From: Oscillospiraceae bacterium
Lineage (GTDB): Bacteria > Bacillota > Clostridia > Oscillospirales > JAAYXM01
Direction of reading: 5' to 3'
DNA: 64,000 nucleotides
NCBI GenBank assembly: GCA_015067485.1
Contig: SVMJ01000005.1
Span: 28,528-92,527, forward strand
In this document: positions 47,975 through 62,115 of the stretch, piece by piece
How the letters are laid out: each line of letters begins with the position of its first letter
How positions within the stretch are numbered: position 1 is the stretch's first letter
Position numbers and translations under genes: made by a program
The notes under the pieces: generated by a model
What the model saw: only the letters and a program-made list of their open reading frames with translations
Told to the model about the DNA's origin: nothing
The model's database searches: none

Positions 47975-48032
47975 GAAAAAAAAGCTACGCTAACAAAGGT
48001 CTTCGGAAGAAGACCCTTATTATCGCAGCTGG
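47975..48032 (-). terminator. riboswitch expression-platform terminator
   Basis: Minus strand AGCTGCGATAATAAGGGTCTTC-TTCC-GAAGACCTTTGTTAGCGTAGCT-TTTTTTT. Confidence 0.75.
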
Positions 48033-48112
48033 ACTGGCATAGTATCAAACCGTAGCCTCTTGGCTTTGCGTCCCCGCCTTTCGACGGGTTTGCCAAAATA
48101 TTCAATTGGCGG
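48020..48112 (-). promoter_or_regulatory. cyclic-di-GMP-I (GEMM-I) riboswitch aptamer
   Basis: Minus strand TTGGCAAACCCGTCGAAAGGCGGGGACGCAAAGCCAAGAGGCTACGG...ATGCCAGTCCAGCTGCG; conserved GGCAAACC, CGAAAG, GACGCAAAGCC. Confidence 0.9.
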
Positions 48113-48121
48113 GCAAACAAA

Positions 48122-50416
48122 TCAGCTCTTGGCAAACACCCACAGGGTATCATTGATGTTTTCCATATTCTCACCCAGCGGATAGATGCTCAAAACCACG
48201 CTCTCGCCACTCGCTTTTTTGTACGTGATTTTGGAATATCCCATTTCGGATATCTGGCGTTTGATCGCATCGTACTGAATGTAACTCATCATCGCACGGC
48301 GGAAATCCGGATGGACATATTCATCGATGTACTGAAACAGTAAGTTCGAGAAATTGTTCTCGTCTTCATTGTAGCCCAGATATTCGGGCATCAGAATACG
48401 GCGTGCATGGTCGTTCTCGAGCGATACACGGTAAATCCCGTTGTAGTGCTCCTTCATGATCGAGAGCATGGTGTCAATCTCACGGATGCCGGTTTTGATC
48501 TGAACATACTCGTTTGCGTCAACCGCGAGAGAAGCAGTTTCTTTGTTCTGATAGTACTGGGATTTTGCCTCATACATTCTGATTTCCGCTTCGCGTACCA
48601 GCTCTTCGCAACTCAAGTTCTGCTTGCGGTACGAAGTGCCGATCGCAACGTGATAATCCATCACACTCAAAAGCATGACAAACGTTTCAAGGCTCTTTTT
48701 GATTTGCTCCTGACTGATGCCACTGGTAAAGACTAAAAATTCGTCGCCGCCCATGCGGTAAATCTTGTGGCCGAAGAACACGTCTTTGAGCGTATTGGCA
48801 ATGTAGATGAGCATCTCATCGCCCGCTGCGTGCCCGTACTTATTGTTGCGCATATTGAGTTCGTTTACGTCAACAAAGATACAAGCGAAGTCTTCCGGCT
48901 TCTCTTCATCATAAACCAGAATATCGTTGTTATAGGAAACGCGGTTGAGTGCACCGGTGAGCGAGTCGGTGGTCGCGGCAACCTCGGTCTTATTGAGATA
49001 CTTTTTGTTAAACAGCGCGATCGAGAAGCAAACCGCAACGTCTTCGAGCAGGATGCGTGCAACACGGCTCTTCTTGGGATTGATACAACCGAGAACGCTT
49101 AAGTGGTTGTTTCTGTCGGTAACATATGCAAATGCGACTTCCCAAATCTGGCGTTCTTCCAAGAAAGTATAGAACGGGTAATTGGTCTTCTTGAGATGTG
49201 CGTTCGGGCGGATACTCAACATACCGAATGGACTGCGGTTCACTTTCTGCAACTCGGTTGCATAACGGAAGATTTCGGAAACAAACTTCTGACGCGTTTC
49301 GTCACGCAAGAGTTCGGGCGCATAGCGCGGGCGGATGTAGAAGTGCTCTTCGCCTTCCGCATCGTCGATGAATGCGGAGCGCGCACCCACAAAGTCCACA
49401 ATATTCTTGAGTGCGATCGAGCAACTTTCGTGGTCCTGATTGAGTTCGAGCAAGATTCTTCTGATATTGGAGGTGCAGTGGACCGCAAGGGATCTCTGTT
49501 TTTCCGCACGCATCAAAAAAAATGTATAGATGAGAATAATCAGACTGATGAGCATAAATGCAACTGTCAAAACGGCAATCGTGGTACGCAGGTTTGCAAA
49601 CACCTGATCTTCATACCGTGCGAGCATAATGCGCCAGCCGACTTCATCAACCGTGGAGTAGTGCACATACAAATTCTGACCGTTGTAAATCGATTTGAAA
49701 GAGCTGTACCCCTTTTCCGCGGTTACCAGTTCTTCATAGGTATAGTCGTCGTTGTAATCACGGGTCTTGAGCGAAGAAACATTCCCAAGCACATCGCTAA
49801 ACGTATCGATGATAAAATTCCCGTTTCCCGGTTCATACACAAACAGCTGCGCGGAGAGTTCTTTCGCCATTTGACTGTAGCGCATATTCAGATCCGCAAG
49901 ATCAATGACGCCGTAGAGAATGCCGACGGTTCTGCCATCCACCACGATCGGAGCGGCGCAACGGATGATTTCTCTGCCTTCATAAACGAAAGACGGAACA
50001 CGGCCGCTGACGTATGTCCCGCGCTTCATCTCTTCCGCGAAGGAGAGTTTGCCGTCAAAGTCAAGCACTTCATTCTGCATAATGAACGTGTTGTCTTGCT
50101 TGAGCACACCGATACGCGCAAACAGACCGATTGGCTTGAAAGATTCAAACACACGGTCGTAGCTTTCGCCATGGGCATAAAGACGTGCCGCAAAGTTTGC
50201 CATAGTGGACAGATTTTCACAGTCAGACCGCAACTGTAAGGATAAATCATCTTTGATGGTCTTGGTCTGGATATGTAACATTTCATACGCTTCGTCTTCT
50301 GCCTGATTGTACAGGAACGTTACCATCGACAAGAACACCGCGCAAATTAAAACCGACGTGATGATCGTATGAAGCACATTATTCTGTTTTTGTTTTTTCT
50401 CGTACTTAATTGCCAT
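48122..50416 (-). CDS. GGDEF-domain diguanylate cyclase with extracellular sensor (CACHE-like)
   Basis: DSLTGALNRVSYNND...NKYGHAAGDEMLIYIANTLKDVFFGHKIYRMGGDEFLVF; N-terminal TM and FIMQNEVLDFDGKLSF...VDGRTVGILYGVIDL sensor region. Confidence 0.88.
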   Translation of the reverse strand: MAIKYEKKQKQNNVLHTIITSVLICAVFLSMVTFLYNQAEDEAYEMLHIQTKTIKDDLSLQLRSDCENLSTMANFAARLYAHGESYDRVFESFKPIGLFARIGVLKQDNTFIMQNEVLDFDGKLSFAEEMKRGTYVSGRVPSFVYEGREIIRCAAPIVVDGRTVGILYGVIDLADLNMRYSQMAKELSAQLFVYEPGNGNFIIDTFSDVLGNVSSLKTRDYNDDYTYEELVTAEKGYSSFKSIYNGQNLYVHYSTVDEVGWRIMLARYEDQVFANLRTTIAVLTVAFMLISLIILIYTFFLMRAEKQRSLAVHCTSNIRRILLELNQDHESCSIALKNIVDFVGARSAFIDDAEGEEHFYIRPRYAPELLRDETRQKFVSEIFRYATELQKVNRSPFGMLSIRPNAHLKKTNYPFYTFLEERQIWEVAFAYVTDRNNHLSVLGCINPKKSRVARILLEDVAVCFSIALFNKKYLNKTEVAATTDSLTGALNRVSYNNDILVYDEEKPEDFACIFVDVNELNMRNNKYGHAAGDEMLIYIANTLKDVFFGHKIYRMGGDEFLVFTSGISQEQIKKSLETFVMLLSVMDYHVAIGTSYRKQNLSCEELVREAEIRMYEAKSQYYQNKETASLAVDANEYVQIKTGIREIDTMLSIMKEHYNGIYRVSLENDHARRILMPEYLGYNEDENNFSNLLFQYIDEYVHPDFRRAMMSYIQYDAIKRQISEMGYSKITYKKASGESVVLSIYPLGENMENINDTLWVFAKS

Positions 50417-53095: not shown

Positions 53096-53530
53096 ATGAA
53101 ACTAAATTATTTTTTTAAATGCGAGGCAGACCAATTTACTTTTTACCGTCTGCCGAAGATTCTGGTGGTAAATGAGATGTTTTCGCACATTTCCTACGGT
53201 GCGAAGATTCTCTACGGACTGCTTCTTGACAGAATGGGATTATCCCTTTCAAATCACTGGCACGATGAATTCGGCAGAGCGTATATCATCTACAGCATCG
53301 TCGAGATTATGGAAGATATGAACTGCTCAAAAGCGACGGCAATCAAGATGATGTCCGAGCTTGAAGATGCAGGACTGCTTGAGAAAAAGAGGCGTGGTCT
53401 GGGACTTGCGAATATTATTTATCTTAAAAAGTTTATAGCGATCGAAAATCAAGAAGTTCAAACTTTAGACTTCAGGAGTCAAGATAGCAGTATTCCAAGA
53501 AGTATAAAATGCGAACTTCAAGAAGTCTAA
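53096..53530 (+). CDS. replication initiator protein A (RepA_N) N-terminal domain protein
   Basis: MKLNYFFKCEADQFTFYRLPKILVVNEMFSHISYGAKILYGLLLDRMGLSLSNHWHDEFGRAYIIYSIVEIMEDMNCSKATAIKMMSELE. Confidence 0.9.
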   Translation: MKLNYFFKCEADQFTFYRLPKILVVNEMFSHISYGAKILYGLLLDRMGLSLSNHWHDEFGRAYIIYSIVEIMEDMNCSKATAIKMMSELEDAGLLEKKRRGLGLANIIYLKKFIAIENQEVQTLDFRSQDSSIPRSIKCELQEV

Positions 53531-53628: not shown

Positions 53629-54543
53629 ATGAACATAGGACTAAAAAGTTATGAGGATTTATTCAAGGACGAGAAAGGCAGAAAAACAGAGGAAATCGTC
53701 CCTGTGGATATTAAGGATTTAAAACCATATACAGAGCAACCGTTCAAGGTTCTTCTTGATAACAGCATGGACGAGCTTTGTGCAAGTATTGAGCAATACG
53801 GAATACTATCGCCCGTAATTGTGCGACCGCATAAGGATGGCGGATATGAAATTCTGTCGGGACACCGCCGAGTAAAGGCGTGTGAGCTTTTGGGCATTGA
53901 GGAAGTCCCTGTTGTAGTAAAAGAACTTGATGACGATACGGCAGCAATACTGCTCGTTGACAGTAACCTACAACGCGAAAACATCCTTCCCAGTGAAAAG
54001 GCATTTGCTTATAAATTAAAGCTTGAAGCCATTAAAAGAAAAGCTGGCAGACCATCGAAAGAAAATGGTGGACAATTCGTCCACGATTTTTTGGATGACA
54101 AATCAAGAGACCTACTTGGCAAAGAAACTGGAGATAGTGGCAGACAAATTCAACGCTATATTCGTTTAACAAATCTTATCGATCCGCTTCTTGAATTGGT
54201 GGATAAGAACGAAATGGCAATGAGTGCAGGTGTTGAGCTTTCATATCTTGGCTCAAAGCTTCAATCGGAGATTTATAAAATTGTCGAGCGTGAAGCAACG
54301 CCGCCGTCAATCGCTCAAGCGGCAAAACTTCGTAAAACCTCAGAGGATGGAAACCTTGATGAAGCCACTCTTGAATTTATCCTGACAGCGCAGAAAGAAC
54401 CGGGGATTAAACTTGTCATCTATGAGGACAAGCTCCGTCGCTACTTCCCCAAGAGCTACACCAAAGAGCAGATTGAAGATACGGTTATGAAACTGATTCA
54501 AAAGTGGCACAAGAATCGGGAAAAAGAAAATTCCCGAGGATAA
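53629..54543 (+). CDS. ParB/RepB/Spo0J family partition protein
   Basis: VDIKDLKPYTEQPFKV...MDELCASIEQYGILSPVIVRPHKDGGYEILSGHRRVKACELLG. Confidence 0.92.
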   Translation: MNIGLKSYEDLFKDEKGRKTEEIVPVDIKDLKPYTEQPFKVLLDNSMDELCASIEQYGILSPVIVRPHKDGGYEILSGHRRVKACELLGIEEVPVVVKELDDDTAAILLVDSNLQRENILPSEKAFAYKLKLEAIKRKAGRPSKENGGQFVHDFLDDKSRDLLGKETGDSGRQIQRYIRLTNLIDPLLELVDKNEMAMSAGVELSYLGSKLQSEIYKIVEREATPPSIAQAAKLRKTSEDGNLDEATLEFILTAQKEPGIKLVIYEDKLRRYFPKSYTKEQIEDTVMKLIQKWHKNREKENSRG

Positions 54544-54599: not shown

Positions 54600-54962
54600 A
54601 TGATTACATACTCAAAGTCAGGCAATATCTTGTTGCCCAATCTTAAAGTTCCCGAACCGCCCAAAGAACCCCTTGGCATCTACGGCAGAACGAGAAGAGA
54701 TTATCTTAAAAAGAACCGCCACAGCATCTACTCTGCCCTGATGCTTAAAGGAACGCTTTTAGAACATCTTGCGGAAGTTGATAAAACCTGCCGTGAGGAA
54801 GTTGAGCTTCGCATAAAGGCAGAGGCAGAAAAACAAGGCATTACGGAAGAGCTTAAGGCGCAGGATATGCTCAAATGGACAGGACTTATGAACAACATCA
54901 AAAACTCGGTGAGAGAGCAAATAACGCACGAGTTTGTGTATGCCGAGGAGGGACTACAATGA
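54600..54962 (+). CDS. TnpV family transposon-encoded protein
   Basis: IYGRTRRDYLKKNRHSIYSALMLKGTLLEHLAEVDKTCREEVELRIKAEAEKQGITEELKAQDMLKWTGLMNNIKNSVREQI. Confidence 0.8.
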   Translation: MITYSKSGNILLPNLKVPEPPKEPLGIYGRTRRDYLKKNRHSIYSALMLKGTLLEHLAEVDKTCREEVELRIKAEAEKQGITEELKAQDMLKWTGLMNNIKNSVREQITHEFVYAEEGLQ

Positions 54963-55246
54963 GTTTTATAGAAGAATTTTTCTACGGCAACATTAACCCC
55001 AATGTGAAACGCTATGACCAGAACGGCAGTTATGCAAAGGCTATGCGGAGATTCTGCGACAATGAAGACGAGCTTAACAAAATGCTCAAAGGAAAACCAC
55101 TTCATATGTTTTTAGACCTTGTAAACGCTCACGATGAAATAGTCGGCATAACAAGCTTTGAAAACTTCAAGCTTGGGTTCAGGTTAGGTGTGCAGATGAT
55201 TTGCGACGCCTTGGTGTGCGACGACGGAGTATTCAAAGATTTATAA
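54959..55246 (+). CDS. DUF6809-like protein
   Basis: MSFIEEFFYGNINPNVKRYDQNGSYAKAMRRFCDNEDELNKML...FKLGFRLGVQMICDAL; start overlaps the TnpV stop. Confidence 0.65.
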   Translation: MSFIEEFFYGNINPNVKRYDQNGSYAKAMRRFCDNEDELNKMLKGKPLHMFLDLVNAHDEIVGITSFENFKLGFRLGVQMICDALVCDDGVFKDL

Positions 55247-55288: not shown

Positions 55289-55403
55289 GGCAAGCATAGC
55301 ATTTGGACAAACAAATGCATTAGCAAGCACGGCATTTTGACAACCAAAAAGCCAATAATGAAAATTTGTTTTAGCAAGCACGGAAATTTGACATCAAATT
55401 TTC
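55289..55403 (+). repeat. three direct repeats AGCAAGCAYGG(N) each followed by a hairpin with non-identical but self-complementary stem
   Basis: (1) GGCAAGCATAGCATTTGGACAAACAAATGC; (2) AGCAAGCACGGCATTTTGACAACCAAAAAGCC; (3) AGCAAGCACGGAAATTTGACATCAAATTTTCC. Confidence 0.75.
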
Positions 55404-55408
55404 CATTC

Positions 55409-55426
55409 TTAGGGGCACGCCCCTAA
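55409..55426 (+). other. perfect-arm palindrome upstream of MobC-like gene (candidate oriT core)
   Basis: TTAGGGGC-AC-GCCCCTAA. Confidence 0.45.
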
Positions 55427-55457
55427 TACCCTAATTAAATTTTAAGGAGACGATATT

Positions 55458-55793
55458 ATGAGAACAAGAAAACATCAATTTACAATGCGATTAAGCGACA
55501 AGGAGTATAACGCCCTTATGAGGCAGGTTAAAAAGGCAGGAACAAACCGAAGCGCAGTTATCCGCAAGCTTATTATGGAGTGTAAAGTCAAACAGCGACC
55601 GGAGGAAATCTTTGAAGAAATGGCAGATAGAATTAAAGTACACCGCTTAGAAATGGACGAGATCACAAAAGAGTGTGCCCTCACCCGAACGGTAACAAAT
55701 GAACAGCTCGACCGCATAGGAGAGTTGCAGATGAAAGTCAAAGAAATCATTGAGGAATACGAAGACTGCTTTGCGGATGAGGAGACATTATGA
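55458..55793 (+). CDS. MobC-like relaxosome / ribbon-helix-helix protein 1
   Basis: MRTRKHQFTMRLSDKEYNALMRQVKKAGTNRSAVIRKLIMECKVKQRPEE. Confidence 0.7.
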   Translation: MRTRKHQFTMRLSDKEYNALMRQVKKAGTNRSAVIRKLIMECKVKQRPEEIFEEMADRIKVHRLEMDEITKECALTRTVTNEQLDRIGELQMKVKEIIEEYEDCFADEETL

Positions 55794-56092
55794 GCAGCAC
55801 AAAACTCGTAATCAGGCTAAACGATGAGGAACGGGCGAAGCTTGATAAACTAAAGGAGAAAACACTCTTGACGCAAAAAGGCATCATACGCAATATCCTT
55901 TTGGGATATAATATTCCCGTAAAAGTGCCAGATTCCTATACTAACTTTATGCGACATATCAACAGCCTGTCGTATTACACATTCAAACTCAAAGTCCAAG
56001 CTGATATAGCCAGCGCGAACCAACTCGACCAAATCGAGCAACTTGACCATAATATAGAAGAAATAATGAAACTGGCATTGTCTTTTATCTAA
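55790..56092 (+). CDS. MobC-like / ribbon-helix-helix protein 2
   Basis: MSSTKLVIRLNDEERAKLDKLKEKTLLTQKGIIRNILLGYNIPVKVP; start overlaps the previous stop. Confidence 0.6.
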   Translation: MSSTKLVIRLNDEERAKLDKLKEKTLLTQKGIIRNILLGYNIPVKVPDSYTNFMRHINSLSYYTFKLKVQADIASANQLDQIEQLDHNIEEIMKLALSFI

Positions 56093-56260: not shown

Positions 56261-56488
56261 ATGGCAGTTACCTATAATAAACTCTGGCACTTACTGATCG
56301 ACAGAGGTATGAAAAAGAAAGACCTGCAAGAAGCGGCAGGCCTTACAAACCACACAATGCTCAAACTCCGCAAAGACCAGGACATCACCACCGAAACCAT
56401 CGGTAAGATATGCAAAGCACTCGGTTGTGACTCGACCGATATCATGGAGTTTTACGAGAACGATAATAGCAAGGTGGACACATTATGA
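56261..56488 (+). CDS. XRE-family helix-turn-helix regulator (possible RM controller)
   Basis: MAVTYNKLWHLLIDRGMKKKDLQEAAGLTNHTMLKLRKDQDITTETIGKICKALGCDSTDIMEF. Confidence 0.9.
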   Translation: MAVTYNKLWHLLIDRGMKKKDLQEAAGLTNHTMLKLRKDQDITTETIGKICKALGCDSTDIMEFYENDNSKVDTL

Positions 56489-58686
56489 AAAATAAAAAGC
56501 ATTATTATATTTCACTTTTTACTGGTGCTGGCGGTCTTGATATTGGGTTTAAAGAAGCAGGTTTTAAAGGTTTACTTGCGAGTGATATAATGCCTCAGGC
56601 AAAAGATACATACGATTTTAATTTCCCTGATGAAACATATCTGTTAAAAGATATTAGAAAATTATCCATTGCAGAAATTAAGTCTTTTATTGGAAACAAA
56701 AAAGTTGATGTTATTATTGGTGGCCCACCATGTCAAGGCTTTTCGAATATGGGAAATAAAAACTCGGCAGATCCGAGGAATATGCTTTTCGAAAGCTATG
56801 TAAAAATAGTGGATGCCATTCGCCCAAAATGTTTTGTTTTTGAAAATGTCAAGGGTTTATATACTATGTTTGAAGGACGCTATTTTAGCCAAGTTGTTAA
56901 AGCGTTTTTATCCATTGGATATAATTTGCATTACTCTATGCTTGATACATCAAATTATGGCGTTCCGCAAAAACGAGAAAGAATATTTATAGTTGGAACG
57001 ACATCTGATGACCAATTTCTTTTCCCAGAACACAGCAATACTTCTTACGGTACAATTAAATCTTTTATCAATGTTGGGGAAGCAATAAATGATCTTACCT
57101 ATAAGGGTGAAGAAGTGGCAAATCACATAGCACTAAACCATTCGGAAGTTGTTGTCAGAAGATATAAGCTAATCCCTGAAGGCGGTAAATTACCAAAACC
57201 AGAAGAGTTGCCAGAGGATATCAGGCGAAAGAATTTTGGCAATACCTATACTCGCTTACATCGGAACGAACTATCTTCAACAATCGTTCCTGGAAATAAT
57301 GCACTTCCTGTTCATCCGGTCCTCAATCGTAGTCTTACGCCTAGAGAGGGGGCACGCATACAAACATTTCCTGATTATTATATTTTTAAGGGCGATCGTA
57401 GGTCGCAGTGCATACAGGTAGGAAATGCTGTCCCGCCCCTTATTGCCGCCAAAATAGCTGATTGTGTTCGTCACTTCATTGATGGCGAGGCCTATAATGG
57501 AATTATGCCTGACAATTCTGTTTTTGTAAAAACGGGAGTTGAAAAATCTTTGTGCAAAGTTCGCAAAGCAAAGCGAGCTACACTTAAATTTGGTGATTTA
57601 TTCTGTGGCGCAGGGGGCTTTACCAAAGGATTAGAACAAGCAGGCTTGGAATGCGTGTTGGGTGCAGAGTTTAATGAATATGCTGTTGAAGCTTATCGCA
57701 AAAATTTCACTCATGAATGTCTTCAAATTGATCTATCAACAGAAGAAAATCAGATATTAGTTGCTGAAAAATTGAAACGTCAAAAGGTGGATCTGGTTGT
57801 TGGCGGACCTCCGTGTCAAGGATTTTCCATATTTGGAAACAGGAGGTTTGTTAACACAAAAAATCATGACTTGACTAAAGACCAGAGAAACAACTTAGTG
57901 TATGCGTTTGCAAATATTGTAGTTCGCTCTGAAACCCCTTGGTTTATAATGGAAAATGTACCAGGTATTCTTTCAGCACATAATGGTGAATATGTCAATA
58001 CAATTAAGAAATATTTCAATGAACATGGATATCGGACTGAGCATAGAATTATAAATGCTGCAGATTATGGTGCGCCACAATTAAGACGTAGATTCATACT
58101 AATTGGAACTAAAACAGATTTTGCTTTTCCATTCCCGAAGGCAAAGTATTTTGAAAACCCCGAATCTTGGCAACATCCATACAGAACTGTTGAAGAGGTG
58201 CTGACTGATTTGGTGGATGAAGAAACTTTAGGGAAACTAAAAAACCATCGAGCACCGAGTCATTCCAAAATTGTAGCAGAGCGATTCTCATATATCCCTG
58301 AGGGAGGGAAGATGGATGTAGAGTTGTTGCCTGAACATTTGAAGCTAGGAACAAAAACAGGAAAACCCGTAGCAAACTTCAGTCATGTTTTTGCTAGATT
58401 GGATCGAAAAAAACCTTCTTGCACAATTGTTCCAGGACATAATGCTCTTCCCGTGCATCCCACACTTAATAGAACATTGACTGTAAGAGAAGCCGCACGC
58501 ATACAAACATTTCCCGATGATTTTGAGTTTGTAGGACCTATTATTAATCAATGTTTGCAAGTAGGAAATGCATTTCCGTGTATTGTGGCACAGACCTTCG
58601 GAGAAAGATTACGAACGGTTATTAACAAAGAATGGAATGACGAGTCTGCAACACATCTTGCGAAAAAATCAATGTTAGAGGAGTGA
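56485..58686 (+). CDS. DNA (cytosine-5-)-methyltransferase with two tandem complete C5-MTase domains
   Basis: Two copies of each: SLFTGAGGLD / DLFCGAGGFT; IIGGPPCQGFS / VVGGPPCQGFS; FENVKGL / MENVPGI; YGVPQKRERIF / YGAPQLRRRFI; TIVPGNNALPVHPVLNR / TIVPGHNALPVHPTLNR; QVGNAVPP / QVGNAFP. Confidence 0.92.
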   Translation: MKNKKHYYISLFTGAGGLDIGFKEAGFKGLLASDIMPQAKDTYDFNFPDETYLLKDIRKLSIAEIKSFIGNKKVDVIIGGPPCQGFSNMGNKNSADPRNMLFESYVKIVDAIRPKCFVFENVKGLYTMFEGRYFSQVVKAFLSIGYNLHYSMLDTSNYGVPQKRERIFIVGTTSDDQFLFPEHSNTSYGTIKSFINVGEAINDLTYKGEEVANHIALNHSEVVVRRYKLIPEGGKLPKPEELPEDIRRKNFGNTYTRLHRNELSSTIVPGNNALPVHPVLNRSLTPREGARIQTFPDYYIFKGDRRSQCIQVGNAVPPLIAAKIADCVRHFIDGEAYNGIMPDNSVFVKTGVEKSLCKVRKAKRATLKFGDLFCGAGGFTKGLEQAGLECVLGAEFNEYAVEAYRKNFTHECLQIDLSTEENQILVAEKLKRQKVDLVVGGPPCQGFSIFGNRRFVNTKNHDLTKDQRNNLVYAFANIVVRSETPWFIMENVPGILSAHNGEYVNTIKKYFNEHGYRTEHRIINAADYGAPQLRRRFILIGTKTDFAFPFPKAKYFENPESWQHPYRTVEEVLTDLVDEETLGKLKNHRAPSHSKIVAERFSYIPEGGKMDVELLPEHLKLGTKTGKPVANFSHVFARLDRKKPSCTIVPGHNALPVHPTLNRTLTVREAARIQTFPDDFEFVGPIINQCLQVGNAFPCIVAQTFGERLRTVINKEWNDESATHLAKKSMLEE

Positions 58687-58691
58687 AAAAT

Positions 58692-59930
58692 ATGGCATTA
58701 AATCATCATGTTCTCGCCAAAGCAACCACCGATGCGATTTTGCAGAATTTTAAATCCGCGATATGGAAATATAACGGAGATTGCGGTGCGGATTTTTATA
58801 GAGTCGGCACGAGCGCAGATTTCCCTTCTCCTGATGCAGCATTTTACGATCCAAAAAACAAAAAACTTGCCTCTTTTGAGTTTAAACCTGCAACAGAAAC
58901 AAAAAGAGGAATGCTTACGGGGGTTGGTCAGAGTATCGCTTATTTAAAGAATTGTGATTTGGCATATCTTATTTCTCCTCATATCATTGATGGATTTAAT
59001 ATGGGAGAATTTTTGACCGATGTATACGAAAATCAAATTGGAAACAAAGTTCCCGTTGGATTAATTCTTTACGACAATAATAATCCTAACAATTTGACCT
59101 TGGCTCATAATGTAGATGAGCTTTCAACATCAAAAGCCGTTCACATACACAAGCCGACAGCAGACCGTTTTTGGGCAAAGCATCAAGATTTGCCAATTGC
59201 TATGTTTCATTTGCTCTTACATTACTACTATCTTAAAAAGGTAGGAATGTTCGAGGGTGATGCTTTTTCTGCTTGCTGGAATGAAAGGATGATACCGGAG
59301 AATATTCTTGATGACTTTGTTGTTAAACCTGTAAAAGATATTTCAGGAAATATTATCGGAACGCTTCAAACCAACAAGCCTCTAACATTCTTGGAGAAAA
59401 TAATTCCCGCTATTCAAAAGAAAGAACCACGAGACCAATGGTCAGTAAAATTAAGACATGCAATTGATGCAACATATATCGGCGATAACTATTATAATTC
59501 CATAAGAAAGAATTATGTGACTTTTCTTAAACACATTCAAGTTGTAGATTCAGAAGGATGCTTGACAGATTCTGGGTTTAATCTTTATCATGTTGGTCTA
59601 TCTAATGGTCCGACAAGTAAACTTTTTGTGGATTATTTTACAAGAGAGGTTTTAACAGTTGGTCATCACTTGGATTTGTTACTTGATATTGATTCAATTT
59701 CTCAAAAATATCCTGATAAAGACATAGACGAGGTTTTAACTATATTAGAAACTGAGTACGAACTTAAGGGGTACATAAAACGCAATCCTAAAAGGATTGC
59801 CGGAGACGAATCTAAGACGGGATTTCTCAAGTATGAGAAAATTTTGTGGCAGTCTCTTGGCCTTATGGATAGCAAATATAATATTTCTTGGAAAAGAATT
59901 ACAGAGATTTGCTCGTTGCCCGAGCTTTGA
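58692..59930 (+). CDS. putative type II restriction endonuclease partner (PD-(D/E)XK-like)
   Basis: Overlaps/abuts the MTase; FPSPDAAFYDPKNKKLASFEFKPATETKRGMLTGVGQSIAYL fits a PD...ExK-like core. Confidence 0.6.
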   Translation: MALNHHVLAKATTDAILQNFKSAIWKYNGDCGADFYRVGTSADFPSPDAAFYDPKNKKLASFEFKPATETKRGMLTGVGQSIAYLKNCDLAYLISPHIIDGFNMGEFLTDVYENQIGNKVPVGLILYDNNNPNNLTLAHNVDELSTSKAVHIHKPTADRFWAKHQDLPIAMFHLLLHYYYLKKVGMFEGDAFSACWNERMIPENILDDFVVKPVKDISGNIIGTLQTNKPLTFLEKIIPAIQKKEPRDQWSVKLRHAIDATYIGDNYYNSIRKNYVTFLKHIQVVDSEGCLTDSGFNLYHVGLSNGPTSKLFVDYFTREVLTVGHHLDLLLDIDSISQKYPDKDIDEVLTILETEYELKGYIKRNPKRIAGDESKTGFLKYEKILWQSLGLMDSKYNISWKRITEICSLPEL

Positions 59931-60118: not shown

Positions 60119-61030
60119 ATGTCAAATATTATAGCAGTTGTTTGGGATTTTGATAAAACTTTAATTAGCGACTATATGCAAGCCCCTATTTTTAAAAAGT
60201 ATGGCGTGGATGCTAAACAGTTTTGGAAGGAAGTGAATGAACTTCCTACTAAATACTTATCAGAACAAAATGTTAAAGTAAATCCCGACACAATATATTT
60301 AAACCATTTTATAAACTATGCCAAAGCCGGAAAATTCAAAGGATTGAATAACGCTCTTCTTCGTGAATTAGGAAAAGAGTTGAAGTTTTATAATGGACTC
60401 CCTGCGCTTATGGAAATAAGCAAAAAGATGATTGAGGATGATCCGATTTATTCAGAATATGATATAAAGGTTGAACATTATATAGTAAGTACAGGTTTTA
60501 CCGAAATGATAAAAGGATCAGAAGTCAATGATTATGTATCCGGAATTTGGGGATGCGAATTAATAGAAGCTCCTGATGAAGATGGAAATGCGGTTATTAG
60601 CGAAATCGGATATACAATTGACAACACAACTAAAACAAGAGCAATTTTTGAAATTAATAAAGGTGTAGGAATTTGGGAAGATGTCAATGTAAATACCAAA
60701 ATGGCTGAAGATCTGCGAAGAGTTCCTTTAAGAAACATGATATACATAGCTGATGGGCCGAGTGATGTGCCTGCGTTTTCAACATTAAATAAGGGTGGTG
60801 GAGCTACTTTTGCAATTTACCCCCGTAACGACATAAGGGCATTTTCGCAAGTGGAGCAATTGCGAAAGGACGGAAGAATAAATATGTATGCAGAGGCCGA
60901 CTATTCTGAAGGCACAACTGCATACATGTGGATAACAGGAAAAATCAAAGAATTTGCAGACAGAATAAGAGAAACTGAGCGTTCGAAGTTAAAGAGTTCT
61001 ATTTCTGATGTTCCCAAACACCTTACGTAA
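60119..61030 (+). CDS. HAD superfamily hydrolase/phosphatase
   Basis: AVVWDFDKTLISDYMQ (DxDxT) and MIYIADGPSDVPAF (GDGxxD-like). Confidence 0.85.
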   Translation: MSNIIAVVWDFDKTLISDYMQAPIFKKYGVDAKQFWKEVNELPTKYLSEQNVKVNPDTIYLNHFINYAKAGKFKGLNNALLRELGKELKFYNGLPALMEISKKMIEDDPIYSEYDIKVEHYIVSTGFTEMIKGSEVNDYVSGIWGCELIEAPDEDGNAVISEIGYTIDNTTKTRAIFEINKGVGIWEDVNVNTKMAEDLRRVPLRNMIYIADGPSDVPAFSTLNKGGGATFAIYPRNDIRAFSQVEQLRKDGRINMYAEADYSEGTTAYMWITGKIKEFADRIRETERSKLKSSISDVPKHLT

Positions 61031-61044
61031 GGAAGATATAAGCT

Positions 61045-62115
61045 ATGTTAGAAAAACTAAAACAGTTTAATTTTTCAGATATAAATTTAGATGACTGCTT
61101 TTTCGACTCCCTAAAAGCGGATTATGGTCCACAATTTATTGAGTGGTATACCAGAAAAGCAACTGAGGGCGCAAAAGCATTAGCTGTAGTAGACAATAGA
61201 GGTGTTCATGCATTCTTATACATGAAAAGAGAGAACGAAGAAATCGCAACCAAAGACATTGTTTTACCAAAAGCAGAAAGGGTTAAAATCGGAACTTTAA
61301 AACTTGATTCTACAGTTGAAGGCCAACGACTAGGAGAGGGTGTTATTGGCGTGGCTTTGTGGAAATGGCAATTGTCTAAAATCAGGGAAGTATATCTGAC
61401 TGTTTTTCCAAAACAAATTACTTTGATTAGTATGTTAGAAAAGTTCGGGTTTAAGCAAGTTGGCATAAAAGAAAATGGGGAATTAATTTTAATGAAATCC
61501 AGAGATAATATAGATTTTTCTTCCCCATACAAATCATTCCCGTTCATTTACAAAAAAGCAAATAGATTTGGACTTATACCTATAAAGGATATATTTCACG
61601 ATAAGTTATTTACATATTCTGAGTCTTTCTATAAACTCTCCGATTTTAAAGAAGCTATTGCCGGAAATGGTATTACAAAAGTATACATTGGATGCCCATA
61701 TACTTGTACTCAATATTCAGAAGGTCAAGTTGTTGGCATATACAGAATATATACAGGCAACGGTTCTAAAGGCAACAGATCTGCAATTACCTCTTTTTGT
61801 ACAATAACAAAAATCACAATTGTAAAATCGGACAATAAAGAAAATATGTCATTCGATGAATATATGAAAATGGCAGGTAATAAAACTATTTTTGAGTCAT
61901 CAGAACTTCGCTCTATATATAAAAGCAGAAATGTTATTATGATAGAAATGGTTTATAACACATTTCTTCCTAAAGGTAAAAATATAACATATTGGCAGCT
62001 GAAGAACAATCAATTGTTTGAAGATCATCCCTATAACATTGAGTATACTGCTGAACAAATGAAAAGCATAATGAAAATGGGAGGGGTTGACATTGAAAAT
62101 ATTATTATCGATTAA
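61045..62115 (+). CDS. GNAT N-acetyltransferase fused to a C-terminal domain (possibly PUA/EVE/ASCH-like)
   Basis: IGTLKLDSTVEGQRLGEGVIGVALWKWQLSKIREVYLTVFPKQITLISMLEKFGFKQVG (GNAT-like); C-terminal GQVVGIYRIYTGNGSKGNRSAITSFCTITKI. Confidence 0.65.
   Translation: MLEKLKQFNFSDINLDDCFFDSLKADYGPQFIEWYTRKATEGAKALAVVDNRGVHAFLYMKRENEEIATKDIVLPKAERVKIGTLKLDSTVEGQRLGEGVIGVALWKWQLSKIREVYLTVFPKQITLISMLEKFGFKQVGIKENGELILMKSRDNIDFSSPYKSFPFIYKKANRFGLIPIKDIFHDKLFTYSESFYKLSDFKEAIAGNGITKVYIGCPYTCTQYSEGQVVGIYRIYTGNGSKGNRSAITSFCTITKITIVKSDNKENMSFDEYMKMAGNKTIFESSELRSIYKSRNVIMIEMVYNTFLPKGKNITYWQLKNNQLFEDHPYNIEYTAEQMKSIMKMGGVDIENIIID

Follow-up and report, generated by a model that had tools for sequence, protein, structure and literature searches.

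In the window, the whole 64,000-nucleotide stretch of DNA that was analysed, three direct repeats (R1, R2 and R3) occupy an intergenic region between a group of genes for replication initiator-like, ParB-like, TnpV and DUF6809 proteins and a pair of genes for RHH proteins (Table 1). Downstream of the RHH pair lie a VanU-like regulator, fused C5-cytosine methylases, a probable restriction enzyme and candidate defence proteins. The fused methyltransferase pair (733 aa) and the probable type II restriction enzyme that follows it (weak PADLOC match, 5.6e-6) fill positions 56485-59930 and together constitute restriction-modification cargo; at 60119-62115 two neighbouring proteins match the PADLOC candidate defence families PDC-S34 and PDC-M11A. 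The minus-strand region 48021-50416 contains a c-di-GMP-I riboswitch (65.2 bits) near a 764-aa sensor/GGDEF-like frame (48122-50416) of the same strand. No integrase was found among the window proteins scanned, and the ends of the element were not found.

Table 1. Coordinates of the repeats, the putative transfer origin and the neighbouring genes
Feature	Coordinates	Strand	Description
RepA_N replication initiator N-terminal domain protein	53096..53530	+	PF06970, 93.2 bits
ParB-like protein	53629..54543	+	PF02195
TnpV	54600..54962	+	PF14198
DUF6809 protein	54962..55246	+	PF20648; final gene before the array
R1	55290..55318	+	Satellite oriT unit; GCAAGCATA at 55290, then 7-bp inverted repeat
R1 arms	55299-55305 / 55312-55318	+	GCATTTG / CAAATGC; loop GACAAA; 7/7 pairs
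R2	55323..55353	+	Satellite oriT unit; GCAAGCAC at 55323, then 9-bp inverted repeat
R2 arms	55331-55339 / 55345-55353	+	GGCATTTTG / CAAAAAGCC; loop ACAAC; 8/9 pairs, A.A mismatch
Complete oriT (putative)	55371..55434	+	R3 unit, then nic-region palindrome, ATACCC
R3	55374..55404	+	Nic-adjacent oriT unit; GCAAGCAC at 55374, then inverted repeat
R3 arms	55382-55390 / 55395-55404	+	GGAAATTTG / CAAATTTTCC; loop ACAT; 9 pairs, one bulged T
Nic-region palindrome	55409..55426	+	TTAGGGG-CACG-CCCCTAA; conserved beside relaxase genes in homologues
RHH1	55458..55793	+	111 aa, NikA/MobC-like relaxosome accessory protein; PF21983, 30.9 bits, above cut-off
RHH2	55790..56092	+	100 aa, second RHH protein; PF21983 below cut-off, 18.8 bits

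The first-pass annotation had described three direct repeats, each with a hairpin of different stem sequence, upstream of a palindrome and two MobC-like genes, and all of these elements were recovered by reading of the window and by a repeat scan (repeats at 55290-55404). Every repeat consists of a GCAAGCA lead followed by an inverted repeat with a stem sequence of its own; the copies are 79-86% identical over 28 nt and are spaced 33 nt and then 51 nt apart. The sequences first given for them needed two corrections: copy 1 begins with the lead GGCAAGCATAG instead of AGCAAGCA, and the loops are those listed in Table 1. R1 is of the 'ATAGCATTTG' type and has no nic palindrome of its own, R2 is of the 'ACGGCATTTT' type and R3 of the 'ACGGAAATTT' type. 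The TTGACA within R2 and R3 was considered as a promoter element and rejected; by eye, no -10 box lies at a suitable distance. Taken singly, the hairpins show only a mild excess of stability over shuffled sequences (z of -1.2, -2.1 and -1.8 for R1, R2 and R3), and the 11-nt lead pattern with one mismatch is not a rare one, the window having 5 occurrences where 3.6 would be expected. Since the hairpins individually barely exceed shuffles, chance had to be excluded by means of homologues. The significance of the repeats rests on DNA matches in homologues, on a model score and on stem covariation, the last of which is strong.

When 292 genomes of the class were searched at the DNA level, the stretch from R3 through the palindrome turned up in several unrelated ones (75-87% identity), and two further genomes matched the R1-R2 stretch. 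Twelve sequences, including the window, were aligned as input for a covariance model. Their consensus, near TTAGCAAGCACGGAAATTTGCC..CAAATTTCCCCTTGTTAGTGGCTACGCCCCTAATACCCC, has three nested or adjacent inverted repeats, namely an outer one (GCAAG/CTTGT, degenerate in the window R3), a variable inner one and the palindrome. The window oriT scores 75.1 bits with this model at 55371-55434 and, the window being one of the 12 input sequences, the independent DNA matches in other genomes weigh more than this score; R2 gives a partial match of 17.1 bits. Lead, variable inverted repeat, nic-region palindrome and ACCC follow one another in the window in the order typical of the family. Model matches were present in 94 of 392 genomes of the class at E<=0.01, many of them with E below 1e-10, and the weakest may be due to chance.

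At the usual locus, the site is followed after about 20-30 nt by an RHH gene of about 100 codons and then by a relaxase gene of about 450 codons, the product of which is homologous over its full length to the PF03432 protein of locus L080. When counts were limited to single-unit loci with at least 1.7 kb of downstream sequence, the relaxase was found in 37/57 and the RHH gene in 41/57; the PF03432 relaxase, missing in the other 20, is therefore usual but not universal. The Monoglobus pectinilyticus plasmid NZ_OY725736 (518 kb) provides an annotated example, with the site followed by mobC, relaxase and PcfB family genes. Its site (81% identity to the family member used as query) is a direct homologue of R3 and the palindrome, but differs from the window in that it has a single unit and a relaxase gene. 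The site is read as an oriT because of its position and anatomy in such homologous loci. By this homology, R3 and the palindrome make up the usual oriT of a large MOBP (PF03432) family in Clostridia. The earlier proposal of oriT accessory sites is supported for R1 and R2, which as judged from their sequences are extra copies of the oriT recognition unit with other arm sequences and without nic, while R3 plus the palindrome is predicted to be the oriT core itself.

Two further readings, as hairpins in the 5' leader of the RHH mRNA or as replication iterons, are highly improbable. The repeats are intergenic and upstream of RHH1, and a RepA_N gene lies about 2 kb upstream, as such readings would expect. 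However, neither the site nor five related loci matched Rfam (Rfam 15, gathering score), and G.T pairs are almost absent, unlike in most RNA stems. The iterons of the first-pass annotation find no support in the homologous sites, which accompany mob genes rather than rep genes; some of these sites (L134 and L135) have no downstream RHH gene.

The window departs from the usual locus downstream of RHH1. RHH1 is homologous to the RHH gene at the equivalent position in canonical oriT-relaxase loci and starts 24 nt past the oriT model match, within the spacing seen in the family. The next gene is not a PF03432 relaxase; its place is occupied by RHH2, which matches an RHH profile built in this analysis (1e-8), followed by the cargo. 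No PF03432 relaxase was found beside the repeats or in the rest of the metagenome-assembled genome (MAG); this absence is provisional because the contig ends at the last base of the window, so that a relaxase could lie farther downstream, and because the MAG is 83% complete. Exact-peptide and tblastn searches of plasmids, phages and genome contigs detected no close relatives of RHH1, and within the order there were only weak ones.

Other relaxase-less arrangements of the oriT were met in the course of the survey. In L138, L095 and L105, oriT and RHH gene are followed by a 460-aa ATPase-like protein (GRRRVGKTALI) in the place of the relaxase, which constitutes a recurrent relaxase-less module. 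The oriT loci L134 (genome G283), L172 and L093 have neither relaxase nor RHH gene and carry other cargo, in L134 a type I restriction-modification methylase-like frame; L134/L038, L172 and L093 have similar DNA immediately downstream of the site. In L043 (2778-2943), an intergenic region with no adjacent RHH or relaxase gene contains two oriT-like sites in opposite orientation, separated by about 35 nt.

Of the initial 67 sites, just three (those of the window, L138 and L101) have additional hairpins with an exact GCAAGCA lead in the 100 nt upstream, and all three lack an adjacent relaxase. A pattern scan of 85,462 species for two units in tandem then gave 51 stretches, mostly from Clostridia; matches outside Clostridia (Nostocaceae, Halomonas, Streptococcus suis and others) were taken to be unrelated repeats and excluded. 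Mixed arrays of 2-4 units before one nic region were thus found at about 30 Clostridia loci. Where enough downstream sequence was available (25 loci), a relaxase-like frame was near the array only once, at L157 and outside the canonical place, as against the 37/57 of single-unit loci. The odds ratio is 44 and the Fisher p about 1e-7, a value that is indicative only, since related arrays do not count as independent cases and the single-unit and array sets come from different searches. An RHH gene lies downstream in 11/25. The arrays adjoin genes for ParB, a large serine recombinase or, in L164, a tyrosine integrase-like frame; in L167 the array, two RHH genes, ParB and serine recombinase are consecutive. 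The closest relative of the window is L172, from a rumen Ruminococcus MAG, which has a four-unit array and shares the ParB-TnpV-DUF6809 order (70.6% DNA identity over 1.6 kb). R2 is conserved there, and the last two units of L172 with the nic region are 84% identical to R2-R3-nic of the window. Six other loci (L142, L148, L150, L179, L185 and L189) have several GCAAGCA units without a nic-region palindrome; these arrays end immediately before a small ORF without a Pfam match, and in L142 a serine recombinase gene comes 1.5 kb farther on.

That stem pairing is preserved while stem sequence varies was examined in two ways. In the 12-sequence alignment, 88% of the cells pair and 8 pairs have changed on both sides; none of 500 shuffles reached the observed pair counts, slid partners also fell far below them, and, the MAFFT alignment (A1) not being structure-aware, the counts understate pairing in bulged rows. 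A structure-fitted alignment was avoided altogether by comparing each left arm with its own right part and with the right parts of other units. Own arms exceeded swapped arms with z=14.0 (0/5000 permutations) in 42 relaxase-linked oriTs, z=8.6 in 52 satellites and 4.4 standard deviations in 33 nic-adjacent array units. The covariation persisted after thinning at 75% and 65% identity, still with 0/5000, and at the strictest thinning satellites retained z=4.2. A good inverted repeat was present in 12/36 thinned satellites (null, 2%), and many satellites may be decaying, as two thirds of the thinned ones lack good symmetry. Loss of the hairpins, or of stem covariation, in homologues would have spoken against the original description; both were found to be retained, and the covariation is strong by either measure. 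The further statement that structure rather than sequence is conserved is less secure, since the GCAAGCA lead and a TTTG core are also conserved.

Covariation is by itself no proof of a hairpin, because the dyad centre is fixed and G.T pairs are scarce. The centre lies 13 nt past the lead in most sites, whatever the apparent loop (0-7 nt), and the stems are almost wholly Watson-Crick (1 G.T and 3 A.C among 336 cells), for which reason a count of wobble bias did not discriminate between a single-strand hairpin and a duplex palindrome. A symmetric double-stranded RHH site would fit the covariation as well as a hairpin does, and the fixed dyad centre leans towards duplex recognition. PcfF of pCF10 is reported to bind the inverted repeats of its oriT as duplex DNA (PMC6514445). 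The suggestion that the hairpins are bound by RHH proteins gains support from the RHH MobC/NikA genes directly downstream, as in tens of homologues, with the qualification that the bound form may equally be a double-stranded site. A weak but significant correlation links arm type to RHH sequence (Mantel r=0.26, p=0.0006) and, with the rest of the protein accounted for, to the DNA-contact strand (partial r=0.20, p=0.002).

The array could be a plain cluster of operators for the element's own RHH proteins, used in relaxosome assembly or in autoregulation of the RHH genes, with the differences between units being drift within a loose consensus. The adjacent RHH genes, the symmetry about a fixed centre with few G.T pairs and the duplex binding by PcfF (PMC6514445) would all agree with such a cluster. 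It is nevertheless a possible rather than a probable account: an RHH gene adjoins fewer than half of the arrays counted, and the two arms of a unit change together, beyond what loose drift would produce.

The identity of the arms bears on a second account. The left arms of R1, R2 and R3 each occur as the single unit in one of three groups of relaxase-linked oriTs, and R1 is identical in lead and left arm to complete relaxase-bearing oriTs, for example those of L139 and L203. An exact 10-nt match to a relaxase-linked left arm was found for 20/52 satellites, while only 4/52 equal the nic-adjacent unit of their own array. The type of the relaxase-linked oriT that is resident in genomes G532 and G544, ATCGCCTTTT, is closer to the satellites, ATCGCCTTTG, than to the nic-adjacent unit of the array. 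A relaxase of this family is encoded elsewhere in 20/35 of the genomes searched (all but a few chosen for their arrays) and in 52/148 sampled genomes of the class, a modest enrichment between two samples that differ in taxa. No helper relaxase was found in this MAG (83% complete) or in G156, which has three arrays. We suggest tentatively, and as somewhat short of probable, that unlike units mimic several oriT subtypes, so that the relaxosomes of different helpers could load on them and share one nic. The matching of arms to three oriT groups, the resident types in G532 and G544, the avoidance of relaxase-bearing loci by arrays and the staphylococcal precedent, in which captured mimics are mostly of differing subtype (PMC8136818), all point this way. 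On the other hand, satellites have no nic region, and a helper bound at R1 would therefore need to reach a nic at a distance of 90-120 nt. In sequence, satellites are also somewhat nearer to their own primary unit than to the primaries of other arrays (2.48 and 3.11 differences in 10 nt), which fits duplication and drift too, and the type matching comes from few genomes; in G541, which carries L172, the match is not exact. This account refines the reading as a relaxase-less mobilizable element and is graded separately from it.

That R1 and R2 are functionless leftovers of earlier oriTs, displaced through recombination or slippage, is unlikely. The loss of good symmetry in most thinned satellites would fit such an origin, as would L138, in which the counterpart of the window R1-R2 pair has the nic directly after its second unit, so that the window looks like the product of an insertion of R3-nic after R2. 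But satellite arms still covary, even at the strictest thinning; arrays occur repeatedly, in numerous lineages, and almost always at loci without a relaxase; and in the window neither R1 nor R2 has lost much.

We consider it quite likely that the feature is the oriT of a mobilizable element with its own RHH accessory proteins and without a relaxase in its transfer module. The element would probably be moved in trans by the enzymes of other elements. The observations behind this reading are homology, arm covariation, the linkage of RHH and relaxase genes to the site elsewhere and the scarcity of relaxases beside arrays; from them we infer protein binding, nicking, transfer in trans and a purpose for the array. 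RHH dimers, the element's own or a helper's, would bind the inverted repeats and bring in a MOBP relaxase encoded by a conjugative element in the same cell; this relaxase would nick at the palindrome, and the nicked strand would be led out through the secretion system of the helper. The element's RHH proteins would act as adapters for a relaxase supplied in trans. Unlike arms would mark different RHH/relaxase specificities, and the array may give the element more helpers to choose from or concentrate accessory proteins locally; that mixed repeats broaden the helper range is plausible. That the arrays of relaxase-less mobile elements in Clostridia are composite origins, in which units of differing specificity before a single nic allow movement by several unrelated helpers or titrate helper accessory proteins, is a conjecture we offer with reserve.

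The analysis provides a sequence model of the oriT that serves a common MOBP group in the Clostridia of gut and rumen, and such a model detects mobilizable elements that relaxase-based surveys overlook. The restriction-modification or candidate defence cargo of some of these elements suggests that the site may mark how defence genes spread in gut and rumen communities. Whether a hitchhiker stacks differing units before one nick site to widen its choice of helpers is a question that can be put to experiment. In the open-licence literature we met no account of unlike recognition units in tandem before one nic, and the letters of the unit motif had no match in conjugation papers. Relaxase-less elements with an oriT, or with an oriT and an accessory factor, are already known; a mixed tandem array as one oriT appears to be undescribed in the papers searched.

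Three known systems can be compared with the window. The Enterococcus faecalis plasmid pCF10 has an oriT served by PcfF (RHH) and PcfG (MOBP relaxase) (PMC6514445); it resembles the Clostridia family in the order oriT - RHH - MOBP relaxase and in the binding of oriT inverted repeats by PcfF, and a PcfB-family gene adjoins the relaxase both in pCF10 and in the Monoglobus plasmid. As a sequence homologue pCF10 was rejected: its oriT region upstream of mobC/pcfF had no model match, and its best scores (11.5 and 9 bits) fell at unrelated places. Relaxase-less IMEs and mobile genomic islands include the classes 'only an oriT' and 'oriT and RAF' (PMC5704250). The window resembles them in having an oriT and an accessory factor with no relaxase seen, and IMEs of this kind use the relaxase of a conjugative element; tandem mixed units are a feature of the window for which the parts of that account consulted have no mention (PMC5704250).

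A parallel in organisation exists with the pWBG749-family oriTs of Staphylococcus (SmpO/SmpP), which combine a conserved core with a subtype-specific inverted repeat, IR2, and in which specificity is set by an RHH accessory protein encoded between oriT and relaxase (PMC8136818). Staphylococcal relaxase-less elements carry mimics of these oriTs and are moved in trans, some plasmids having captured two or three whole mimics, mostly of different subtypes; moreover, a mobilizable plasmid that carries smpO can be acted on by a pWBG749 plasmid that is not cognate to it (PMC8136818). The array elements differ from these in belonging to Clostridia, in carrying partition and recombinase genes and in having short tandem recognition units before one nic where the mimics are separate whole oriTs. 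The comparison is one of organisation and makes no claim of family membership: the window has several differing units and RHH genes of its own, no relaxase was found in it, and its site would work in a manner comparable to that of a pWBG749-type mimic.
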